From NCBI RefSeq assembly GCF_039724765.1, contig NZ_CP155729.1, forward strand, positions 806,001 to 870,000: a stretch of DNA of 64,000 nucleotides. Reading direction: 5' to 3'. Made by a program: the position numbers and the translations under genes. The stretch's first letter is position 1, and each line of letters starts with the position of its first letter. The stretch comes from Sagittula stellata E-37 (GTDB lineage: Bacteria > Pseudomonadota > Alphaproteobacteria > Rhodobacterales > Rhodobacteraceae). Under the pieces are notes generated by a model, which was not told where the DNA came from, did no database searches, and was given only the letters and a program-made list of their open reading frames with translations. Of the stretch, positions 7,789 through 15,854 are shown one piece after another.

Positions 7789-7941
7789 TCAGCCCGCGGA
7801 GTCTCGGCGGGCGGCTTCGTCTTCGGCACGGTCCGCGTCCTCGGCGGTCCACGCGTCCGAGCGCAGTTCCAGCCACATTGCGTTCATCACCGCGAAGAGC
7901 GCGGCCAGCGGGAGGCCCAGAAGCCAAGCGAAGTACCACAT
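7789..7941 (-). CDS. cydX: cytochrome bd small subunit CydX
   Basis: A 50-residue protein starting MWYFAWLLGLPLAALFAV, the characteristic single helix of CydX/YbgT that stabilises the haems of cytochrome bd oxidase, followed by an acidic tail (DADRAEDEAARRD). It lies 20 bp after cydB in the same direction, which makes the assignment secure despite its size. GGAAAGGAGACGGGAT upstream gives a good ribosome site. Confidence 0.92.
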   Translation of the reverse strand: MWYFAWLLGLPLAALFAVMNAMWLELRSDAWTAEDADRAEDEAARRDSAG

Positions 7942-7961: not shown

Positions 7962-9125
7962 TCAGTAAAGCGTGTCGGATTTGCCGGTCACCTCGTCCTC
8001 GGTGACCTTGCCCCAGAGCACCCGGTAGACCCAAGCGGTGTACATCAGGATCAGGGGCATGAAGATCACCGCGCAGACCAGCATGATGAACAGCGTCAGG
8101 TGCGAGGACGAGGCGTCCCACACCGTCAGCGAGCTGTCCGGGTCCACGGTGGACGGCAGGATGAACGGGAACATCGTCAGCCCGACGCTCGATATCACGC
8201 CGAGGATGCCGAGTTTCGAGGCCAGCAGCGTCGTCACCTCGCGTCCGGCCTTCAGCCCCATGACGGCGAGCGCGATCCCGGCAAAGCCCATCAGCGGCGC
8301 CACGGCGATCCACGGGCGTTCGGCATAGGCCGACAGCCACGAACCGCCGCGCATCACCTCGCTCAGGAGGGGGTTCGATGGCCCGTCCGTCACCGCCTCT
8401 GCGGTGAAGGCGTAGCCGTCGATACCCACCGCCAGCCACAGCCCGGCCAGCGCGTAGCCGCCCGCCGCGACCATCCCGGCGGTCACGCCGATGGCGCGGG
8501 CCCGGTCCTTCACCGCGCCTTCGGTCTTCACCGACAGCCAGGCCGCGCCGTGCATCAGCAGCATCGACAGCGACACCACGCCCGCCAGCAGCGCGAAGGG
8601 CCGCAGCAGGCCCACGAACTTGCCCAGCATCGAGCCGTCGTACATCGGCATCAGGTCCTGCGTCAGGTGGAACGGCACGCCCAGAAGCACATTGCCCACC
8701 GCGACACCGAACAGCGTCGCCGGCACCGCGCCGCCCGCGAACAGCGCCCAGTCCCAGCGTTCCCGCCAGGTCGGGTCCTCGCGCTTCGAGCGGTACTTGA
8801 ACGCCACCGGGCGCACGATCAGCGCGGCGAGGATCACGAACATCGCAAGGTAGAACCCGCTGAACGACACCGCATAGAGCGGCGGCCACGCGGCGAAGAT
8901 CGCCCCGCCGCCCAGGATGAACCACACCTGGTTGCCTTCCCACACCGGGCCGACGGTGTTGATGACCACGCGGCGCTCCACGTCGGTCTTCGCCACGAAG
9001 GGCAGCAGCGCGCCAACGCCCATGTCGAAACCGTCCGTCAGGGCGAAACCGATCAGCAGCACGCCCAGCAGGCCCCACCAGATGACGCGCAGCGTCTCGA
9101 AATCTATCAGGTCCGAAAGGATCAT
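7962..9125 (-). CDS. cydB: cytochrome bd ubiquinol oxidase subunit II
   Basis: A 387-residue polytopic membrane protein with about nine helices. Family landmarks include the N-terminal WWGLLGVLLIGFALTDGFDMGVGALLPF and GPVWEGNQVWFI. CydB supports haem insertion and quinol oxidation by CydA. The oxidase reduces O2 to water at low oxygen without proton pumping and is relatively resistant to NO. It sits 5 bp downstream of cydA and upstream of cydX. Confidence 0.97.
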   Translation of the reverse strand: MILSDLIDFETLRVIWWGLLGVLLIGFALTDGFDMGVGALLPFVAKTDVERRVVINTVGPVWEGNQVWFILGGGAIFAAWPPLYAVSFSGFYLAMFVILAALIVRPVAFKYRSKREDPTWRERWDWALFAGGAVPATLFGVAVGNVLLGVPFHLTQDLMPMYDGSMLGKFVGLLRPFALLAGVVSLSMLLMHGAAWLSVKTEGAVKDRARAIGVTAGMVAAGGYALAGLWLAVGIDGYAFTAEAVTDGPSNPLLSEVMRGGSWLSAYAERPWIAVAPLMGFAGIALAVMGLKAGREVTTLLASKLGILGVISSVGLTMFPFILPSTVDPDSSLTVWDASSSHLTLFIMLVCAVIFMPLILMYTAWVYRVLWGKVTEDEVTGKSDTLY

Positions 9126-9130
9126 ATCGT

Positions 9131-10729
9131 TTACTCCGCCGGGGACACGACGCCGCGCGACCGCAGTCGTGCGTCGTGCCGCCGTTGCCAGTCATCCGTC
9201 TCCGCAACGTCTAGGTACGGCCCTTTGCGGATGTATTTCACCATCAGGCTTACCTCGATCACGAAGAGGACCGTGTAGAACAGGATGAACCCGGCCAGCG
9301 TGAACAGCACGTCAGCCACGCTGAGGTGCGACACCGACATTGCCGTCGGCAGCACGCCCGAGACGGTCCACGGCTGGCGCCCGAACTCGGCCACGAACCA
9401 GCCCAACTCGGCGGCGATCCACGGCATCGGAATCCACGCCACCGCGCCCCAGAGCGCCCAACGCGGAAAGGTCATCCGCCGGAAGGACGCGCGCCAGAAG
9501 AAATACGCCGTCAGGAGGATGAAGCTGAAGCCGAGGCCCACCATGATCCGGAACGCCCAGAACAGCGGCGCGACGCCCGGCACGGTGTCCCAGGCCGCCT
9601 TGTCGATCTGCTCTTCGGTGGCATCGCGCGGATCGTCCACGTAGCGCTTCAGCAGGAAGGCATAACCCAGGTCCATGGAGTTCTGCTCGAACACGAAGCG
9701 GGCCTCGGGCGGCACGTCGCCACGGTTCTCGCGCACGGTCATCAGCGCGTCGTAGGCGATGATGCCGCGCCGCACGCGTTCCTTGTTCTCGGCCACCAGA
9801 TCCTTGATGCCGGGGATCTCCTCCGTCAGGCTCCGGGTGCCGATCAGGCCCATGACCCAGGGGATTTCCACCGCGTAGTGCGTCTCGCGCGCTTCCTTGT
9901 CGGGGAAGCCCACCAGTGTGAAGGGCGCGGGTGCCTCGTGCGTTTCCCACATCGCCTCGATCGAGGCGAGCTTCATCTTCTGCACCTGCCCGGCGGAATA
10001 GCCCGATTCGTCGCCCAGCACGACCACCGACAGCGCCGCGGCAAGGCCAAAGGCCGAGGCCACCGCGATGGACCGCCGCGCCATGTCCGTGAACCGGCCC
10101 TGCAACAGGTAGAGTGCCGAAACCCCGAGCACGAAAAGCGAGGCCGTCACATAGCCGGCGCTCACGGTGTGCACGAACTTCGACTGCGCCACCTCGTTGA
10201 AGATGACCTCGAAGAAGTCGGTCATCTCCATGCGCATGGTCTCGGGGTTGAACTCCGCGCCGACCGGGTTGTTCATCCAGCCGTTGGCGATCAGGATCCA
10301 AAGCGCCGAAAAATTCGACCCGATGGCCACCAGCCACGCCACGACAAGGTGCTGCACCTTCGACAGCTTGTCCCAGCCGAAGAAGAACAGCCCGACAAAG
10401 GTGGCCTCAAGGAAGAAGGCCATCATCCCTTCGATGGCCAGCGGCGCGCCGAACACGTCGCCCACGTAATGCGAATAATACGACCAGTTCATGCCGAACT
10501 GGAATTCCATCGTTATGCCTGTCGCGACGCCCAGCACGAAGTTGATGCCGAACAGCGTGCCCCAGAACTTCGTCATCTGCCGCCAGATCGGGCGGTTCGT
10601 CATGACGTAGACGGTCTCCATGATGGCGACGATGATCGACAACCCCAGCGTGAGCGGCACGAACAGGAAGTGATACATAGCCGTCAGGGCAAATTGCAGG
10701 CGCGACAGCTCGACCAGTCCGATCTCCAT
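9131..10729 (-). CDS. cydA: cytochrome bd ubiquinol oxidase subunit I
   Basis: A 532-residue catalytic subunit that binds haems b558, b595 and d. Landmarks are the N-terminal LSRLQFALTAMYHFLFVP (an axial histidine near residue 20), GVATGITMEFQFGMNW, WILIANGWMNNPVG, and GRQPWTVSGVLPT in the last third. The periplasmic Q-loop is of intermediate length. First gene of cydABX; AAGGAGCTCTCTT precedes the ATG. Control elements are listed separately: an FNR-type box centred 88 bp and an Rrf2-type dyad centred 33 bp before the start. Confidence 0.97.
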   Translation of the reverse strand: MEIGLVELSRLQFALTAMYHFLFVPLTLGLSIIVAIMETVYVMTNRPIWRQMTKFWGTLFGINFVLGVATGITMEFQFGMNWSYYSHYVGDVFGAPLAIEGMMAFFLEATFVGLFFFGWDKLSKVQHLVVAWLVAIGSNFSALWILIANGWMNNPVGAEFNPETMRMEMTDFFEVIFNEVAQSKFVHTVSAGYVTASLFVLGVSALYLLQGRFTDMARRSIAVASAFGLAAALSVVVLGDESGYSAGQVQKMKLASIEAMWETHEAPAPFTLVGFPDKEARETHYAVEIPWVMGLIGTRSLTEEIPGIKDLVAENKERVRRGIIAYDALMTVRENRGDVPPEARFVFEQNSMDLGYAFLLKRYVDDPRDATEEQIDKAAWDTVPGVAPLFWAFRIMVGLGFSFILLTAYFFWRASFRRMTFPRWALWGAVAWIPMPWIAAELGWFVAEFGRQPWTVSGVLPTAMSVSHLSVADVLFTLAGFILFYTVLFVIEVSLMVKYIRKGPYLDVAETDDWQRRHDARLRSRGVVSPAE

Positions 10730-10751
10730 AAGAGAGCTCCTTGGTGTTTAT

Positions 10752-10772
10752 TTCCGCATCCGTGATGCGGAA
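10752..10772. promoter_or_regulatory. perfect dyad, proposed Rrf2-regulator operator at cydA
   Basis: TTCCGCATC-N3-GATGCGGAA is a perfect 9+3+9 palindrome, 20-40 bp before the cydA start and immediately downstream of the transcription start predicted from the FNR box. Related copies occur at 10826 and 14184. A repressor bound here would block transcription of cydABX. Assignment to the nearby Rrf2 protein is inference. Confidence 0.65.
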
Positions 10773-10782
10773 TTCGTGGCGC

Positions 10783-10824
10783 TTATATATTCCACATTCA
10801 AGATACGAAATTGACACAGGTCAA
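10783..10824 (-). promoter_or_regulatory. FNR-type box and -10 element of the cydABX promoter
   Basis: TTGAC-N4-GTCAA at 10811-10824 is a symmetric FNR/FnrL-type box (consensus TTGAT-N4-ATCAA). On the minus strand an A/T block, ATATAA (10788-10783), lies where the -10 of a class II FNR-activated promoter should be if the box is centred at -41.5. This predicts a start near 10776. Confidence 0.65.
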
Positions 10825-10825
10825 A

Positions 10826-10846
10826 TTCCGCATCACGGTTACGACA
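10826..10846. promoter_or_regulatory. second, imperfect copy of the Rrf2-type dyad
   Basis: TTCCGCATC at 10826-10834 repeats the left arm of the cydA dyad exactly. After the 3-nt spacer the right arm matches only 5 of 9 positions. It directly abuts the FNR box, so binding could compete with FNR. Confidence 0.4.
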
Positions 10847-10892
10847 TTAGCCAATTGGTCCGGCAGGGGAATGTCACAGATTGGCGCGGGTC

Positions 10893-12536
10893 TCAGGATG
10901 TGAACGGACGTAGCGACACAACCCGGTCGGCGTCCGCGATCTCGGCCCGGCGGTGGGCCGCCAGAAGGATCGCCGCATCCGGCAGCGCCGCGCGCAGCCC
11001 GGCCATCACACGCTCTGCGGTTGCGCGGTCCAGCCCCTCTGTCGGCTCGTCCAGCAGCAGAACGCCCGGTCGGCGCAGCAGGGCGCGGGCGAGCACCAGC
11101 CGACGCGCCTCGCCCCCCGACAGGCCCGCCCCATGGAACCCCAAGGGCGCGTCCAGCCCCCCTTTGGCTGCGGCGACATGGCCCAGTGCCACCGCCTCCA
11201 GCGCGGCCGCCAGTTCGGTGTCCGTGGCCTCCGGCGCGGCAAGACGGAGGTTTTCGGAAATCGTGCCCGCGATCAGCGCGTGCCGCTGCGGGACCATCGC
11301 CACTGTCCGGCGCAGCGCGGGCTCTGTCACGCGGGCGAGGTCGGTCCCGCCCAGCGTCACCCGTCCGCCGACTGGTGCCAGCACCCCGGCGGCCATCAGG
11401 AGGACCGTGCTCTTGCCGCTGCCACTCGGGCCGGTCAGGGCCACTGTCTCTCCCGCCGCGACGTGGAGCGACAGCGGCGCGAACAGCGACCGCGCCTGTC
11501 CCTGCGCAAAGGTCACCGCCTCCATGACCAGCACACCGGACGGCGCGACGCCCCCGGTGGCCTCCGGCACGTCGAGCGCGGGCGCCACCCGCCGCGCGGC
11601 CGAGATCATCCGACCGACCTCCGCCAGCGCCCGCCTTACCGGGGCCACCGTCTCTCCCAACGCCAGCGCGGCCAGTGTGCCGACGGCGACCTCGGGCGCA
11701 CCCACATCTCCCGTCCGTGCCAGCGTCGCGCCAAGGCCAAGCGCGCCGCCGACCACTAGCGTGCCGATCAGGTCGAGGCCAAAGCCCATGCGCCGCTCCA
11801 CCCGGTCGACCTCGGCCCGAGCCGCGGCGTGCCGTGCCACGGCACCGCGCACCGACTCTGCCGCCCGGTCGAGCTGGCCGAAGACCGCCAGGTCCTCGCG
11901 CGCGCCCACCATATCCACCAGCCGCGACCGCATCGCCTGCATGGCCGCCTCTGTCCGGCGCGCTGGGCGCCGCGCCAGCCGCGCCCCGGCCACGAAGACC
12001 AGCGTCGGCCCGCACAGATAGCCGCAGACGACCCACAGCCCGATCCAGGGGTGCACCAGCCACGCCAGCACCAGCCCGCTCGCAAGGATCACCGCGCCGC
12101 CCGCCAGCCCCGGCAGCAGCAGCCGCAGCATGACCCCGTCCAGCGCGTCGATGTCGGCCACCAGCCGGTTCAGGACGGCCCGGGCGCGCAGCCGCTCCAG
12201 CCGCCGCCAGGGCGCCGAGACAAGGCCCTGCATCAGCCGCACCCGCAGCCGCGACAAGGCGCGCAGCGTGGCGTCATGGGTCAGAACCCGCTCTCCATAA
12301 CGCGCCGCCGTCCGTCCCAACGCCAGCAGACGCACCATGGCCGAAGGCACGAGAACGTTGAAGAAGGCACCCGCGCCCGCCAGCCCGGCCATCGCCGCCG
12401 CCGTGATGAACCACCCCGACACGCCCAGCAGCGCCACGCCCATGACCAGCACCAGCACGGTCAGCGCAAAGCCCCGCAGCACGGCCCGGATCTCTTCGCC
12501 GATCAGAGGCCCGACGATGCGCCAGAGCGCCCTCAT
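10893..12536 (-). CDS. cydC: cysteine/glutathione ABC exporter, CydC
   Basis: A 547-residue fused membrane/ATPase half-transporter. Six helices fill about residues 1-300. The ATPase part has Walker A (GPSGSGKST), signature LSGGEARR and Walker B (VLLLDEPTEGLD). CydDC exports cysteine and glutathione to the periplasm and is needed to assemble cytochrome bd. The ATG overlaps the end of cydD as ATGA, so translation is coupled. It sits directly upstream of cydABX on the same strand; the 163-bp gap holds the cydA promoter. Confidence 0.93.
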   Translation of the reverse strand: MRALWRIVGPLIGEEIRAVLRGFALTVLVLVMGVALLGVSGWFITAAAMAGLAGAGAFFNVLVPSAMVRLLALGRTAARYGERVLTHDATLRALSRLRVRLMQGLVSAPWRRLERLRARAVLNRLVADIDALDGVMLRLLLPGLAGGAVILASGLVLAWLVHPWIGLWVVCGYLCGPTLVFVAGARLARRPARRTEAAMQAMRSRLVDMVGAREDLAVFGQLDRAAESVRGAVARHAAARAEVDRVERRMGFGLDLIGTLVVGGALGLGATLARTGDVGAPEVAVGTLAALALGETVAPVRRALAEVGRMISAARRVAPALDVPEATGGVAPSGVLVMEAVTFAQGQARSLFAPLSLHVAAGETVALTGPSGSGKSTVLLMAAGVLAPVGGRVTLGGTDLARVTEPALRRTVAMVPQRHALIAGTISENLRLAAPEATDTELAAALEAVALGHVAAAKGGLDAPLGFHGAGLSGGEARRLVLARALLRRPGVLLLDEPTEGLDRATAERVMAGLRAALPDAAILLAAHRRAEIADADRVVSLRPFTS

Positions 12537-14104
12537 GTTGCCGCCCCCAGCGTCACCACCCGGTCCAGGCGTGCCGCAAGCCCCGCGTCATGGGTCGCGA
12601 CGATCAGCGAGCCGCCCGCCTGCGCGAACCCCAGCAGCGCCCCGGCCACCGCCTCTGCCGTCGCGGGGTCGAGGTCCGCCGTCGGCTCGTCCGCCAGCAA
12701 TGCGCCCCGGCCCGCCATCAGCGCTCGGGCCAGCGTCACGCGCCGCGCCTCGCCGCCCGACAGGCCCGCGCCGCGTTCGCCCAGCACGGTCAGCGCGCCG
12801 CGCGGCAGGGCGGCCAGCACCTCCGCCAGTTGCGCCCGCGCTACCACGTCGTCCGGCACCTCCGCGCCGAAACCCACGTTGTACCGCAGCGACCGGTCGA
12901 GGAAGTGCGGTGCCTGCGGCATCCAGCCCAAGCCTGCGCGCCAGCCGTCGATGACCTCCGGCAGGGGACGGCCGCCGACACGCACTTCGCCCGCCGAGGG
13001 CCGCTCCAGCCCGGCCAGCACCCGCAGCAGTGTCGTCTTGCCCGCGCCGCTCGGGCCGGTGATTGCCACGCTTTCTCCCGGGGCCACCTCGATGTCCGGC
13101 AGCGCGATGCCCCGCGCCACCACGCCGCGCAGCGCCACGGGTCCCATGGGCGCGCCTGCGTCGCCGCCGCGCATCAGCGCCGGTCTGGCCTCGGCGCGCC
13201 AGTCCGCAAGCTCCGCCTCCACCGCTTCGGCCGCTGCCTTGTCGTGCCATGCGGCGGCCAGGTCGCGCAGCGGCTGGAAGAACTCCGGCGCCAGCAACAA
13301 CAGCCAGATGCCCGCCGCCGGGGACAGCACGCCGCCCCATGTGCCCCAGCCGATCACGCCCAACAGGTGAAAGCCAGTCCAGACCGCCACCATCGCCACG
13401 CCAAGCGCCGCGAACAGCTCAAGCACCGTGGAGGACAGGAAGGCGATGCGGAGCACCGCCATCGTCCGCGCCCGCAACCCTTCGGAGGACGCCGCGAAGC
13501 CGCTGACCACCGGCCCGCCCGCACCGATCAGACGCAGGTCGGCGAGCGCGGAAAGCCGGTCCACCAGAAGGTCGCTCAGGTCGCCGATCTCGACCATCTG
13601 GCGCGCGCTGGCCTCTTTCGCGGCCCAGCCGACCAATGCCATGAAAACCGGGATCAGCGGCCCCGCCATCACGAAGATCAGCGCCACGGCCCAGGACTGC
13701 GACACGGCGATGGCAAGGATCAGCAGGGGGACCACCGTGGCGCGCAGGCGGGCGGGGCGGTAGCGCATCAGGTAGGGGCGCAGCGCCTCCAGCTTTTCCG
13801 CCATGAGCGCCGCCAGCGCCCCCGGTCCGCCCAGGGCCGACGGCGCGGCGGCTGCCGCTTCGGCTGACACGATCTCTGCCCGGGCCGCGCCGATCCGCGC
13901 CTCGGCAAGGGCGGAAAGCTGCGCCTGTGCGATGCGCTCCAGTCCGGCGCGCAGCACGCCCAACGCGACAAAGCCGCCCGCCACGCCCCAGACCGGCAGC
14001 GCCCCGGTCCCGGCCATCAGGTCGGCCAGAAGCGCGGCCAGCAGCCAGGCCTGCACAGGCCACACCAGCGCCTGCGCCAGAGAGGCCACCTGTCCGTTCC
14101 GCAT
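12533..14104 (-). CDS. cydD: cysteine/glutathione ABC exporter, CydD
   Basis: A 523-residue half-transporter with an N-terminal membrane domain, Walker A (GPSGAGKTT), signature LSGGEARR and Walker B (ALLADEPTADLD). It pairs with CydC, and together they are required for cytochrome bd maturation. The frame is open to 14191, but the ATG at 14104 is preceded by CGGAGGGTGAC, a strong ribosome site, and gives a normal N-terminus. It is divergent from the Rrf2 regulator, with an FNR-like box and an Rrf2-type dyad between them. Confidence 0.92.
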   Translation of the reverse strand: MRNGQVASLAQALVWPVQAWLLAALLADLMAGTGALPVWGVAGGFVALGVLRAGLERIAQAQLSALAEARIGAARAEIVSAEAAAAAPSALGGPGALAALMAEKLEALRPYLMRYRPARLRATVVPLLILAIAVSQSWAVALIFVMAGPLIPVFMALVGWAAKEASARQMVEIGDLSDLLVDRLSALADLRLIGAGGPVVSGFAASSEGLRARTMAVLRIAFLSSTVLELFAALGVAMVAVWTGFHLLGVIGWGTWGGVLSPAAGIWLLLLAPEFFQPLRDLAAAWHDKAAAEAVEAELADWRAEARPALMRGGDAGAPMGPVALRGVVARGIALPDIEVAPGESVAITGPSGAGKTTLLRVLAGLERPSAGEVRVGGRPLPEVIDGWRAGLGWMPQAPHFLDRSLRYNVGFGAEVPDDVVARAQLAEVLAALPRGALTVLGERGAGLSGGEARRVTLARALMAGRGALLADEPTADLDPATAEAVAGALLGFAQAGGSLIVATHDAGLAARLDRVVTLGAAT

Positions 14105-14164
14105 TGTCACCCTCCGTCCGCGTCTGGCCGGCTTTTGCCCTGTCGCCGGCGCGGCGCACGCGCC

Positions 14165-14178
14165 CTGATCTGGATCAA
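14165..14178. promoter_or_regulatory. FNR-like box between cydD and the Rrf2 gene
   Basis: CTGAT-N4-ATCAA, one mismatch from the FNR consensus TTGAT-N4-ATCAA in either reading. Its centre is 67 bp before cydD and 58 bp before the Rrf2 gene, so it could serve either divergent promoter. Confidence 0.5.
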
Positions 14179-14183
14179 GGATA

Positions 14184-14204
14184 TTCCGCATGGCGGATGC
14201 AAGA
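14184..14204. promoter_or_regulatory. Rrf2-type dyad in the cydD/rrf2 divergent promoter
   Basis: The left arm TTCCGCATG matches 8 of 9 and the right arm GATGCAAGA 6 of 9 positions of the dyad found at cydA, with the same 3-nt spacer. It ends 25 bp before the Rrf2 start codon, a position suited to autorepression. Confidence 0.55.
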
Positions 14205-14229
14205 AAGACGCCCAGCCAGAGGAGCGGCC

Positions 14230-14745
14230 ATGCGTCTCACCACCCGAACCAACCTCGCCGCGCGTGTCCTGATGTTCTGCGCGGCCAATCCCGGCACGCA
14301 GGTCCGCAGCGCCCAGATCGCCGCCGCCTGCAATGCCTCCGCCAACCACGTCGCCCGCGTGGTGCAGCAGTTGCAGTCCGAAGGCTTCCTGTCCACCCGG
14401 CGGGGGCGGACCGGCGGGCTGCAACTGGCCCGGCCTCCCTCGGCCATTTCCATCGGGACGGTCTTCCGCCTGTTCGAGACCGAGATCCCCTTTGCCGAGT
14501 GTTTCGATCCGGTTGCCAACACATGCCCTTTGACAGGCACCTGCCGCCTGAAGCGTTACCTGACGCGTGCGCTCGATGCCTTCTATCAGGAGCTCGACCG
14601 CGTGACGCTCGACGATCTGACGCAGGGCAATTGCGGGCTGGACCGGTTGCTGGCGCTCAGCCCGGCCCTGCCGGGCGCCTGCGACGCTTCGGACTTGGCT
14701 TCGGACAGGGGGCCCGCGGCGGCCGTGCGGCGCAACGGTCCGTAG
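14230..14745 (+). CDS. Rrf2 family (NsrR/IscR-type) transcriptional regulator
   Basis: A 171-residue regulator. A winged helix at 1-75 contains ANHVARVVQQLQSEGF and the wing RGRTGGLQLAR, as in NsrR, RirA and IscR. Three cysteines, C91, C99 and C105 (CFDPVANTCPLTGTC), mark an Fe-S binding loop. The C-X7-C-X5-C spacing differs from the usual C-X5-C-X5-C, so the cluster or its fourth ligand may differ. The sensor class responds to NO, O2 or iron status. The gene is divergent from cydD, and matching dyads lie at both cyd promoters, so its likely target is the bd oxidase system and itself. ATG follows AGAGGAGC. Residues after about 145 look disordered. Confidence 0.88.
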   Translation: MRLTTRTNLAARVLMFCAANPGTQVRSAQIAAACNASANHVARVVQQLQSEGFLSTRRGRTGGLQLARPPSAISIGTVFRLFETEIPFAECFDPVANTCPLTGTCRLKRYLTRALDAFYQELDRVTLDDLTQGNCGLDRLLALSPALPGACDASDLASDRGPAAAVRRNGP

Positions 14746-14780: not shown

Positions 14781-15332
14781 TCAGTGCAACCCGTCGGGTC
14801 CGTGCTTCAGGATCACCGGGACGATCAGGTCCTCCTCGTCGGCCAGATGCCGGCGCAGCAGCGTCTCGAAGCCGATCACGTCCTCGCGGAAGGTTCCGGC
14901 CTCCCGCTTGCCGCGCAGCACACCGTTGGCCCCGTCGGCGAATTGCGCGATCAGCCCGTCCATCGCGTGGTGATCGCGGTCGAGGATCTCGAAGCCCCTG
15001 TCCAGCCGCGCCTCACGCGCTTTCAGCACCGGAAAATAGTGCATGTCCTCGATCTGGTGATGGCCGTGGAGGTTCTGCACCAGCATGCCGCCGTACCGGC
15101 TCAGCCTTGCCTGCATCTCGCGCGGGTCCATCTGGCCGTCGACCACGCCCTCCGCATCGGTGCGCATCACCTCGCAGAGCTGCCGGAACATTTCGTGCCG
15201 GTCCAGCCAGAAGGCCACCAGTCCGGCAAAGTTGGGGTGCGCCTGCCAGTCGGCACGCGGGAAGGCCTCCAGAAGCACCCTCAGCGCTTCCGGCAGCCCA
15301 TCCCGTTCCGTCAGATCGTAAAGCTTGTCCAT
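14781..15332 (-). CDS. hemerythrin-domain protein
   Basis: A 183-residue, mainly helical protein with histidine/acid motifs of a di-iron hemerythrin bundle: HHQIEDMHYFPVL, DRDHHAMDGL and RRHLADEEDLIVPV. Such proteins bind O2 or NO or help repair Fe-S and di-iron centres under nitrosative stress. It begins 31 bp downstream of the universal stress gene on the same strand and is probably co-transcribed with it. The frame is open to 15407; the ATG at 15332 was chosen because the extra upstream residues look non-coding. The ribosome site is weak. Confidence 0.83.
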   Translation of the reverse strand: MDKLYDLTERDGLPEALRVLLEAFPRADWQAHPNFAGLVAFWLDRHEMFRQLCEVMRTDAEGVVDGQMDPREMQARLSRYGGMLVQNLHGHHQIEDMHYFPVLKAREARLDRGFEILDRDHHAMDGLIAQFADGANGVLRGKREAGTFREDVIGFETLLRRHLADEEDLIVPVILKHGPDGLH

Positions 15333-15363: not shown

Positions 15364-15777
15364 TCAACGCACCACGTGCACAGCACAGGTGACGTGGCGC
15401 ACAACATGCGCCGCGACCGAGCCGATCAGCAGGTCCTGCATCCCAGGCCGGTGCGAGGCCATGACCACCAGGTCCACCCCGTGCCGCTCCACCCGCTCGA
15501 CGATCGACCGCGCCGCATGGCCGGACACGACCACGGGCACGCCACCCGGCACACCTTCGGCCAGTTGCGCGACCCTCTTCTCAAGGTGCTTTCGCGTCTC
15601 CGCAATATACTCTGTCGGCAGGTAGCTTGCGATGTAGCCCGGCACCTCCTCCACCACGTGCAGGACGGTGATCGTCGCGCCCTCGACCGCCAATCGTTGG
15701 GCCACCTCCAGCACCTTCGCGACAGAGACGCCCCCCGCCTCGTCGAACACGACCGGAACCAGAATATTGCGATACAT
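15364..15777 (-). CDS. universal stress protein, UspA family
   Basis: A 137-residue single-domain Usp. N-terminal MYRNILVPVVFDEAG and C-terminal DLVVMASHRPGMQDLLIGSVAAHVVRHVTCAVHVVR match the nucleotide-binding fold; the glycine-rich ATP loop is partly preserved (HRPGMQDLLIGSVA). Usp genes of this type often belong to FNR regulons in Rhodobacterales. The ATG at 15777 has an excellent AGGAGGT site. Likely first gene of a two-gene unit with the hemerythrin gene. Confidence 0.9.
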   Translation of the reverse strand: MYRNILVPVVFDEAGGVSVAKVLEVAQRLAVEGATITVLHVVEEVPGYIASYLPTEYIAETRKHLEKRVAQLAEGVPGGVPVVVSGHAARSIVERVERHGVDLVVMASHRPGMQDLLIGSVAAHVVRHVTCAVHVVR

Positions 15778-15854
15778 CGAAAGACCTCCTGTCCCGCCGC
15801 CCGTCAGCCGGGCCGGCTGTTGCCTCATCCTGCGCGCGCCCGCAGGAAACTGCC

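Follow-up and report, generated by a model that had tools for sequence, protein, structure and literature searches.

The cytochrome bd locus of Sagittula stellata E-37 lies in a stretch of 64,000 nucleotides (contig NZ_CP155729.1, positions 806,001 to 870,000), which we call the window and number from its first letter. The genes cydD, cydC, cydA and cydB, for the oxidase and its CydDC exporter, are transcribed leftwards, and rrf2, encoding an Rrf2-family regulator, is transcribed rightwards from the other side of the cydD promoter. Four copies of a palindromic element, the dyad, stand before cydA and between cydD and rrf2. We consider it likely that the adjacent Rrf2 protein uses this dyad as its operator, that the operator serves the cydDC-cydAB block as well as the regulator's own gene, and that it is private with respect to the other Rrf2 proteins of the cell. 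The genes and sites are as follows.

7962-9125, minus strand: cydB, cytochrome bd subunit II; named by eye and by position, relatives likewise having it beside cydA.
9131-10729, minus strand: cydA, cytochrome bd subunit I; model NF011677, 735.7 bits, below the cut-off of 968.
10750-10774, strandless: dyad site A (perfect 9+3+9 dyad at 10752-10772); 23.8 bits by the relatives' matrix.
10784-10789, minus strand: candidate -10 of cydA, TATATA; chosen by eye.
10788-10812, strandless: dyad site B (TTCCACATTCAAGATACGAAA at 10790-10810); 21.2 bits.
10811-10824, strandless: FNR-like box of the cydA promoter, TTGACACAGGTCAA; 10 of 10 arm positions, kept between B and C in relatives.
10824-10848, strandless: dyad site C (core 10826-10846); 16.0 bits.
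10893-12536, minus strand: cydC, exporter subunit; top models are CydC, under their cut-off.
12533-14104, minus strand: cydD, exporter subunit; best model TIGR02857 CydD, 416.5 bits, below the cut-off of 435.
14165-14178, strandless: FNR-like box of the rrf2/cydD divergent promoter, CTGATCTGGATCAA; assigned from its sequence, with similar positions in relatives.
14182-14206, strandless: dyad site D, in the rrf2/cydD divergent promoter (core 14184-14204); 13.8 bits.
14230-14745, plus strand: rrf2, Rrf2-family regulator of 171 amino acids with Asn8, C-x7-C-x5-C and Ala38 in the recognition helix.

The scores come from a palindromic matrix obtained by expectation maximization (EM) on the cydA promoters of 13 relatives; no base of the window was used, and locus L064 was left out of training. 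The conserved element is 25 bp long, TAATCCGCATCnnnGATGCGGATTA, with 16.1 bits of information. Site A is the strongest and best-conserved copy, its center lying 33 bp upstream of the cydA ATG, and its pattern with up to three mismatches occurs once in the window, versus 0.06 times expected from shuffled sequence. Site B, centered 71 bp upstream of the same ATG, matches at 14 of 18 positions by eye and outscores C and D by matrix. Site C, centered at 107 bp and beginning one base after the FNR-like box, has an exact left arm (TTCCGCATC, 10826-10834) and a degenerate right arm (5 of 9 positions by eye). Site D, the weakest of the four, matches at 14 of 18 positions (shuffle P of ~0.01). Since cydD likely starts at 14104, with GGAGGG ahead of it, rather than at the mechanical open reading frame (ORF) start of 14191, the center of D is 90 bp from the cydD ATG and 36 bp from the rrf2 ATG at 14230, upstream of both. 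The original prediction, made from the letters alone, had placed a perfect palindrome before cydA, a second copy with an exact left arm against the cydA FNR box and a third with 14 of 18 positions in the divergent promoter. All three are in place, although site B was overlooked and the element extends to 25 bp.

From upstream, the cydA promoter thus reads C (-107), FNR box (-88.5), B (-71) and A (-33). The FNR box lies 31 bp, center to center, from the candidate -10. In class II FNR promoters the box stands about 31 to 32 bp upstream of the -10; the spacing to this -10, chosen by eye, would fit such a promoter with a cydA start near 10776. Given such a start, B would lie between the FNR box and the -10, and A just downstream of the start.

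In the window, the relatives' matrix finds only four places of at least 12 bits, namely A, B, C and D, all in the cyd block. We also scanned the 5.29-Mb genome with a sequence-only profile of 49 sites from relatives, the window's four sites being excluded and 150 of 1229 first-look candidates being scored. The top two places were site A (19.2 bits, E = 0.009) and site B (14.2 bits, E = 0.42). The same scan found no convincing dyad outside the cyd block that would extend the regulon to NO (nitric oxide), heme and iron-sulfur (Fe-S) genes, where the original prediction had proposed to look, and no site at iron genes. A plain-pattern search of this genome with up to three mismatches gave 15 looser matches elsewhere, one with two mismatches (inside an ABC-ATPase match) and fourteen with three, versus one for the reversed pattern. 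Sixteen control genomes, comprising 12 that have cydA without an adjacent rrf2 and four that have rrf2 without a bd-type cydA, gave no place with an E value below 0.37, and the best was the promoter of an rrf2 from the cyd-linked clade (described below) that stands without cyd in G085. That genome has an 18.7-bit dyad before its cyd-clade rrf2 (L016, 1377-1399) and no cydA match was found in it, so the L016 protein may have other targets. We also scanned 16 genomes in which rrf2 is linked to cyd or a close rrf2 is present; 11 of them had supplied sites to the profile, so their cyd matches are circular. Five off-locus loci in linked genomes (L122, L123, L124, L126 and L130) contain no cyd gene, and the first four of these lie within open frames of 269 to 618 codons.

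The dyads are conserved at fixed positions. A scan of genome contigs gave 31 Rrf2 loci, and cyd genes adjoin rrf2 in 14 of them (L041, L043 to L052, L054, L055 and L064). Across the window, the 13 named relatives, G080, G016 and five new genomes (G285, G382, G345, G312 and G373), the cydA layout is kept at near-constant spacing, with A at -32 to -39, B at -66 to -71 where present, the FNR box at -83.5 to -91.5 and C at -102 to -110. Typical dyad positions in relatives are about -34, -69 and -106, with the FNR box between the last two and further dyads in the rrf2/cydD gap. The five new promoters, which are not copies of the training set (72 to 76% identity over 90 to 123 bp for four of them and, for the fifth, 88% over 42 bp), all have A and C, and three have B. 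Site B is the weakest copy in relatives: two of the 13 training promoters (L045 and L050) and two of the new ones (G285 and G345) have it at less than 10 bits. The cydA promoter of L064 lacked both A and B in this comparison. Fourteen of 20 rrf2/cydD divergent promoters, which had no part in training, reach 15 bits, versus 0.05% of shuffles; the window's own, at 13.8 bits, is among the six that do not (L042 and L053 were left out of this count, and L013, L025 and L037, duplicates of L054, L058 and L065, were dropped).

The arrangement also occurs in another order. Plasmid unnamed3 of Allorhizobium pseudoryzae (NZ_CP049244.1, L172), a megaplasmid, carries an rrf2-cydDCAB block, and in 18.4 kb of this held-out sequence the only two matches of at least 12 bits lie upstream of cydA (16.0 bits) and in the cydD/rrf2 gap (13.6 bits). 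Finding this block on a rhizobial megaplasmid suggests that regulator, operators and oxidase were transferred horizontally as a unit. The original expectation of conserved sites in orthologous promoters was therefore borne out. In scans of the cydA promoters of G390, G450, G411 and L172, a second linked subgroup, we observed a far-upstream dyad centered at about -115 and none at A or B. These four have the recognition-helix sequences NHLQ, HHLL or NHLL and a dyad that reads by eye approximately TAAcc.g.ATCnnnGATAC..gTTA; the operator thus seems to differ from one subgroup to another.

The dyad co-occurs with an adjacent rrf2. In a first sample, 15 bits were reached by 3 of 6 linked cydA promoters (G000, G080, G016, G083, G111 and G007), by none of 12 cydA promoters without adjacent rrf2 and by 2 of 37 unlinked rrf2 promoters. 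In a larger sample, 394 genomes were searched and 70 had a bd-type cydA at E ≤ 1e-150. Sixty-six promoters were analyzed, 51 of them new, after G282 (cydA start missing) and G000, G025, G080 and G016 (window, training or duplicate genomes) had been left out. Outside the training set, 9 of 17 cydA promoters with rrf2 within 5.6 kb reached 15 bits, versus 4 of 49 without (P = 0.0003, Fisher's exact test); for the 51 new promoters alone the counts were 9 of 14 versus 4 of 37 (P = 0.0003). Among the 17 linked promoters, 15 bits were reached by 8 of the 13 whose Rrf2 lacks glutamate at recognition-helix position 38 (non-Glu38) and by 1 of the 4 Glu38 cases. G328, a genome of the same genus, has cydDC and cydA but neither a nearby rrf2 nor a dyad (4.3 bits). 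Together with the helix changes described below, this co-occurrence suggests that Rrf2 binds the dyad.

The window Rrf2 passed the Rrf2 superfamily model TIGR00738 (88.0 bits against a cut-off of 73.3). Its best score was to the NCBIfam RirA model NF008886 (124.8 bits, under the cut-off of 193, which none of the 58 genomes in a sample of the class passed), and it scored 88.9 bits with the NsrR model NF008240, under the cut-off of 182. Alignment confirmed the predicted three cluster cysteines, spaced C-x7-C-x5-C, and placed an asparagine at position 8, so that the Asp8 ligand of NsrR is not present. Both Asn8 and the cysteine spacing match Sinorhizobium meliloti RirA, to which the protein is 39.6% identical; the best PDB sequence match is Streptomyces coelicolor NsrR (5n07, E = 2.5e-19). 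According to the available part of PMC10510648, Asn8 of RirA accompanies a fragile cluster, believed to have three Cys ligands, and an N8D substitution stabilizes the cluster and abolishes iron sensing. In a quick tree, from which the frame-broken Rrf2s of L070 and L071 were omitted, 18 of 21 cyd-linked Rrf2s fell into one clade (Shimodaira-Hasegawa-like approximate likelihood ratio test value, 82) together with L016, L042 and L053; the other three (L035, L036 and L064) grouped with paralogues and have at most 10 bits before their rrf2.

Position 38 largely separates the proteins that have the dyad before their own gene from those that do not. An own-promoter dyad of at least 13 bits was found for 20 of 25 non-Glu38 Rrf2s versus 1 of 34 Glu38 Rrf2s. 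Positions 38 and 43 align with Tyr40 and Lys45 of S. coelicolor NsrR, of which, in the accessible text of PMC9338935, Tyr40 contacts a base and Lys45 may do so (weak density). The window protein thus lacks its paralogues' Glu38 at a position aligned to a DNA contact. The S. stellata genome also has such a paralogue, at C1:156339-156788 (L072, 8337-8852), which has Glu38, is 52% identical, lies behind an FNR-like box, TTGATGCAAGTCAA, and adjoins a ChaC-like gene (named by eye).

The dyad, TCCGCAT-N5-ATGCGGA, has the 19-bp geometry of the NsrR box (7 + N5 + 7; 25 bp with its A/T flanks) and differs in its outer triplet, TCC; the NsrR consensus is given as gATGyAT-N5-ATrCATc in the portion of PMC1274295 available. 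We also considered that the halves are inverted relative to NsrR, an idea dropped when alignment on GCATC/GYAT gave the same geometry. When the outer triplet was varied through all 64 possibilities at fixed geometry, with FNR boxes masked, TCC ranked first in the cydA promoters of the window and named linked loci (14; GAT ranked 46), in other linked non-Glu38 cydA promoters (13, eleven of them new, G083 and G111 being the other two; GAT ranked 50) and in the linked divergent promoters (18, L064 and L035 also being omitted; GAT ranked 47). In 53 cydA promoters with no rrf2 nearby or with a Glu38 Rrf2, GAT ranked second, below GCT, and TCC ranked 39; nine of these promoters matched the GAT form at 11 or more of 14 positions, versus 0.75 expected. 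The dyad therefore resembles an NsrR-type operator whose outer half-site has been switched, and TCC in place of GAT would set it apart, as a private operator, from the one that the other Rrf2s of the cell are expected to use. The GAT half of this contrast is the weaker one, since an EM search for an NsrR-like motif, run without a seed on promoters lacking rrf2 and with FNR boxes masked, did no better than on shuffles and since the promoters of 30 Glu38 rrf2 genes did not separate the triplets (at least 11 of 14 positions: TCC in four, GAT in one; ranks: GAT 3, TCC 4).

It is possible, though we think it unlikely, that another regulator binds the dyads, for instance the Rrf2 paralogue at C1:156339, which likewise stands behind an FNR-like box, and that the adjacent rrf2 is incidental. 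The S. stellata genome does encode such a paralogue, the TCC form is no rarer than GAT in the 30 Glu38 rrf2 promoters, and 4 of the 49 cydA promoters without rrf2 nearby reach 15 bits (G371, G297, G318 and G313), in genomes whose best Rrf2s, 51 to 57% identical, are encoded elsewhere. However, the other 45, and all 12 of the first sample, fall below 15 bits, although an Rrf2 relative was found elsewhere in all 14 genomes without adjacent rrf2 that were searched; just 1 of 34 Glu38 Rrf2s has a 13-bit dyad at its own gene; and in the 53 cydA promoters without this Rrf2 it is GAT, not TCC, that is in excess. Still less probable is that site A works not as a protein site but as an RNA hairpin in the cydA leader, affecting stability or attenuation. 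No other copy is as strong or as well conserved, and the presumed leader in which A lies folds into a 9-bp stem with a 3-base loop (-12.9 kcal/mol), as any such palindrome would; yet B, C and D share its geometry upstream of the presumed starts or in the divergent promoter, and Rfam gave no match in 10600-14400 at E ≤ 1. That the dyads are chance or repetitive extragenic palindromic (REP)-like elements with no regulatory role is very improbable: palindromes can be repetitive, the right arms of C and D are degenerate and the genome has 15 loose matches, but only four places in 64 kb reach 12 bits, the genome's top two lie at cyd, the copies keep their positions in relatives and promoters that have no such regulator mostly lack the element.

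Several observations weigh against an operator of the adjacent Rrf2. In the window itself, C and D are degenerate, and the matrix scan found no dyad of at least 8 bits on the cydD side of the divergent promoter. The genome scan, proposed with the original prediction as a check, agreed with it in its best two places and less so below them: site C (10.2 bits, E = 8.6) ranks under four unrelated places (12.2 to 10.9 bits), within or beside ORFs that we named by eye as a betaine-type binding protein, a repeat protein, an acetyltransferase and an AraC-type region; site D is absent among the matches listed at E ≤ 10; and there are the 15 loose plain-pattern matches. Five genomes that had not contributed to the profile (G083, G111, G007 and those of L053 and L064) gave no cyd match at E ≤ 2. 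Eight of the 17 cydA promoters with rrf2 nearby fall below 15 bits, including those of the non-Glu38 genomes G391, G269, G272, G111 and G083 (14.4 bits), and four promoters reach this score with no rrf2 nearby. At L053, whose protein is a tree neighbor of the window protein (64% identity, tblastn), the region before rrf2 lacks a dyad (-0.2 bits) and the locus contains no cyd gene. Position 43 is inconsistent, being Arg or His in the main subgroups and Gln in several dyad-bearing members. On the tree the dyad changes 5 times, linkage 7 times and Glu38 twice, which is not enough for a significant independent-pairs test, and the helix, dyad and linkage contrasts are accordingly few and not independent. 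To these we add the failure of the Glu38 rrf2 promoters to separate the triplets. Taken together, the conservation and the genome scan nonetheless leave the compact regulon originally proposed, of Rrf2, bd oxidase and CydDC exporter with autoregulation, standing as a prediction.

Three neighboring genes were also noted. A 50-amino-acid frame follows cydB (7789-7941, minus strand; N terminus MWYFAWLLGLPLA, read by eye), which we take by eye to resemble a CydX/YbgT-type small bd subunit. Downstream of rrf2, 14781-15332 on the minus strand encodes a protein with a weak YtfE match (22 bits against a cut-off of 254) and perhaps a hemerythrin-like domain, and beyond it lies a universal stress protein at 15364-15828; the matrix scan of the window found no dyad of at least 12 bits around these two.

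How the circuit might work can be proposed from this layout. At low O2, FNR bound at about -41 would activate cydA and rrf2. Cluster-bound Rrf2 dimers would occupy B, A and C at cydA and D at rrf2 and block both promoters. The three cysteines and Asn8, as in RirA, predict a labile cluster, which would be lost when Fe-S clusters fail (low iron, NO or O2), so that Rrf2 would let go of the DNA. Full output of bd oxidase and exporter would then require low O2 together with Fe-S stress (FNR AND NOT holo-Rrf2). The repression, the cluster type and the signal are all predictions here, and the gate logic is speculative since NO would harm FNR too, a further point against the scheme. Tentatively, and with less confidence than we place in the operator itself, we suggest that a RirA/NsrR-type lineage moved beside cydDCAB, that its helix changed (Glu38 lost and, in the main subgroups, Gln43 replaced by Arg or His) as the operators went from GAT to TCC, that the circuit thereby became insulated from the Glu38 paralogue, and that a repressor with a fragile cluster came to override FNR, so that bd oxidase would be made only at low O2 with failing Fe-S clusters.

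With NsrR, the NO-sensing Rrf2 repressor, the window protein shares the Rrf2 fold, three cysteines and operator geometry; it differs in having Asn8 for Asp8, TCC for GAT in the operator, and cyd and its own gene as predicted targets, and E. coli NsrR combines Asp8 with C-x4-C-x5-C rather than C-x7-C-x5-C. With RirA, the iron-sensing Rrf2 repressor of rhizobia, it shares Asn8 and C-x7-C-x5-C, whereas the Glu38 of RirA is replaced here and the predicted targets are cyd rather than iron uptake. The dyad is presumably also unlike the iron-responsive operator (IRO) box of RirA. In control of terminal oxidases by FNR or FnrL, as here, FNR-like boxes precede the genes (both promoters have one, at class II distance from the candidate -10 at cydA); the difference is that Rrf2-type dyads flank the FNR box in this locus.

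Two RirA-like proteins of Rhodobacter sphaeroides, RSP_3341 and MppG (RSP_2888), have cysteines as the window Rrf2 does; in the available portions of PMC4344238 and PMC4263372 the former is an FnrL target and direct nap repressor and, in PMC4263372, the latter represses photopigment genes. Their named targets in those portions are nap, dnaK and ccmE or photopigment genes, and no link to cyd was found there. An FnrL target that represses nap fits the combination of FNR and Rrf2 proposed here and recalls the FNR box before the window rrf2. Partial texts further indicate that FnrL activates an rrf2 gene in Dinoroseobacter shibae (PMC5398030) and that cydAB of Rhodobacter capsulatus is a RegA target (PMC5359404). 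A term search of the accessible parts of PMC5343134 and PMC6431628 returned nothing on Rrf2 control of this kind, and among the matches listed in PubMed Central (titles and starts of abstracts, subscription papers and RegPrecise being outside this scope) we found no report of an Rrf2 operator at cyd in this group.

The Rrf2 family makes few base-specific contacts, according to the part of PMC9338935 available. For these regulators, our analysis proposes a testable specificity code in which one helix position and one operator triplet would change together. For marine alphaproteobacteria, it proposes how the copper-free bd oxidase may be timed, by two Fe-S sensors of unequal stability acting at one promoter.

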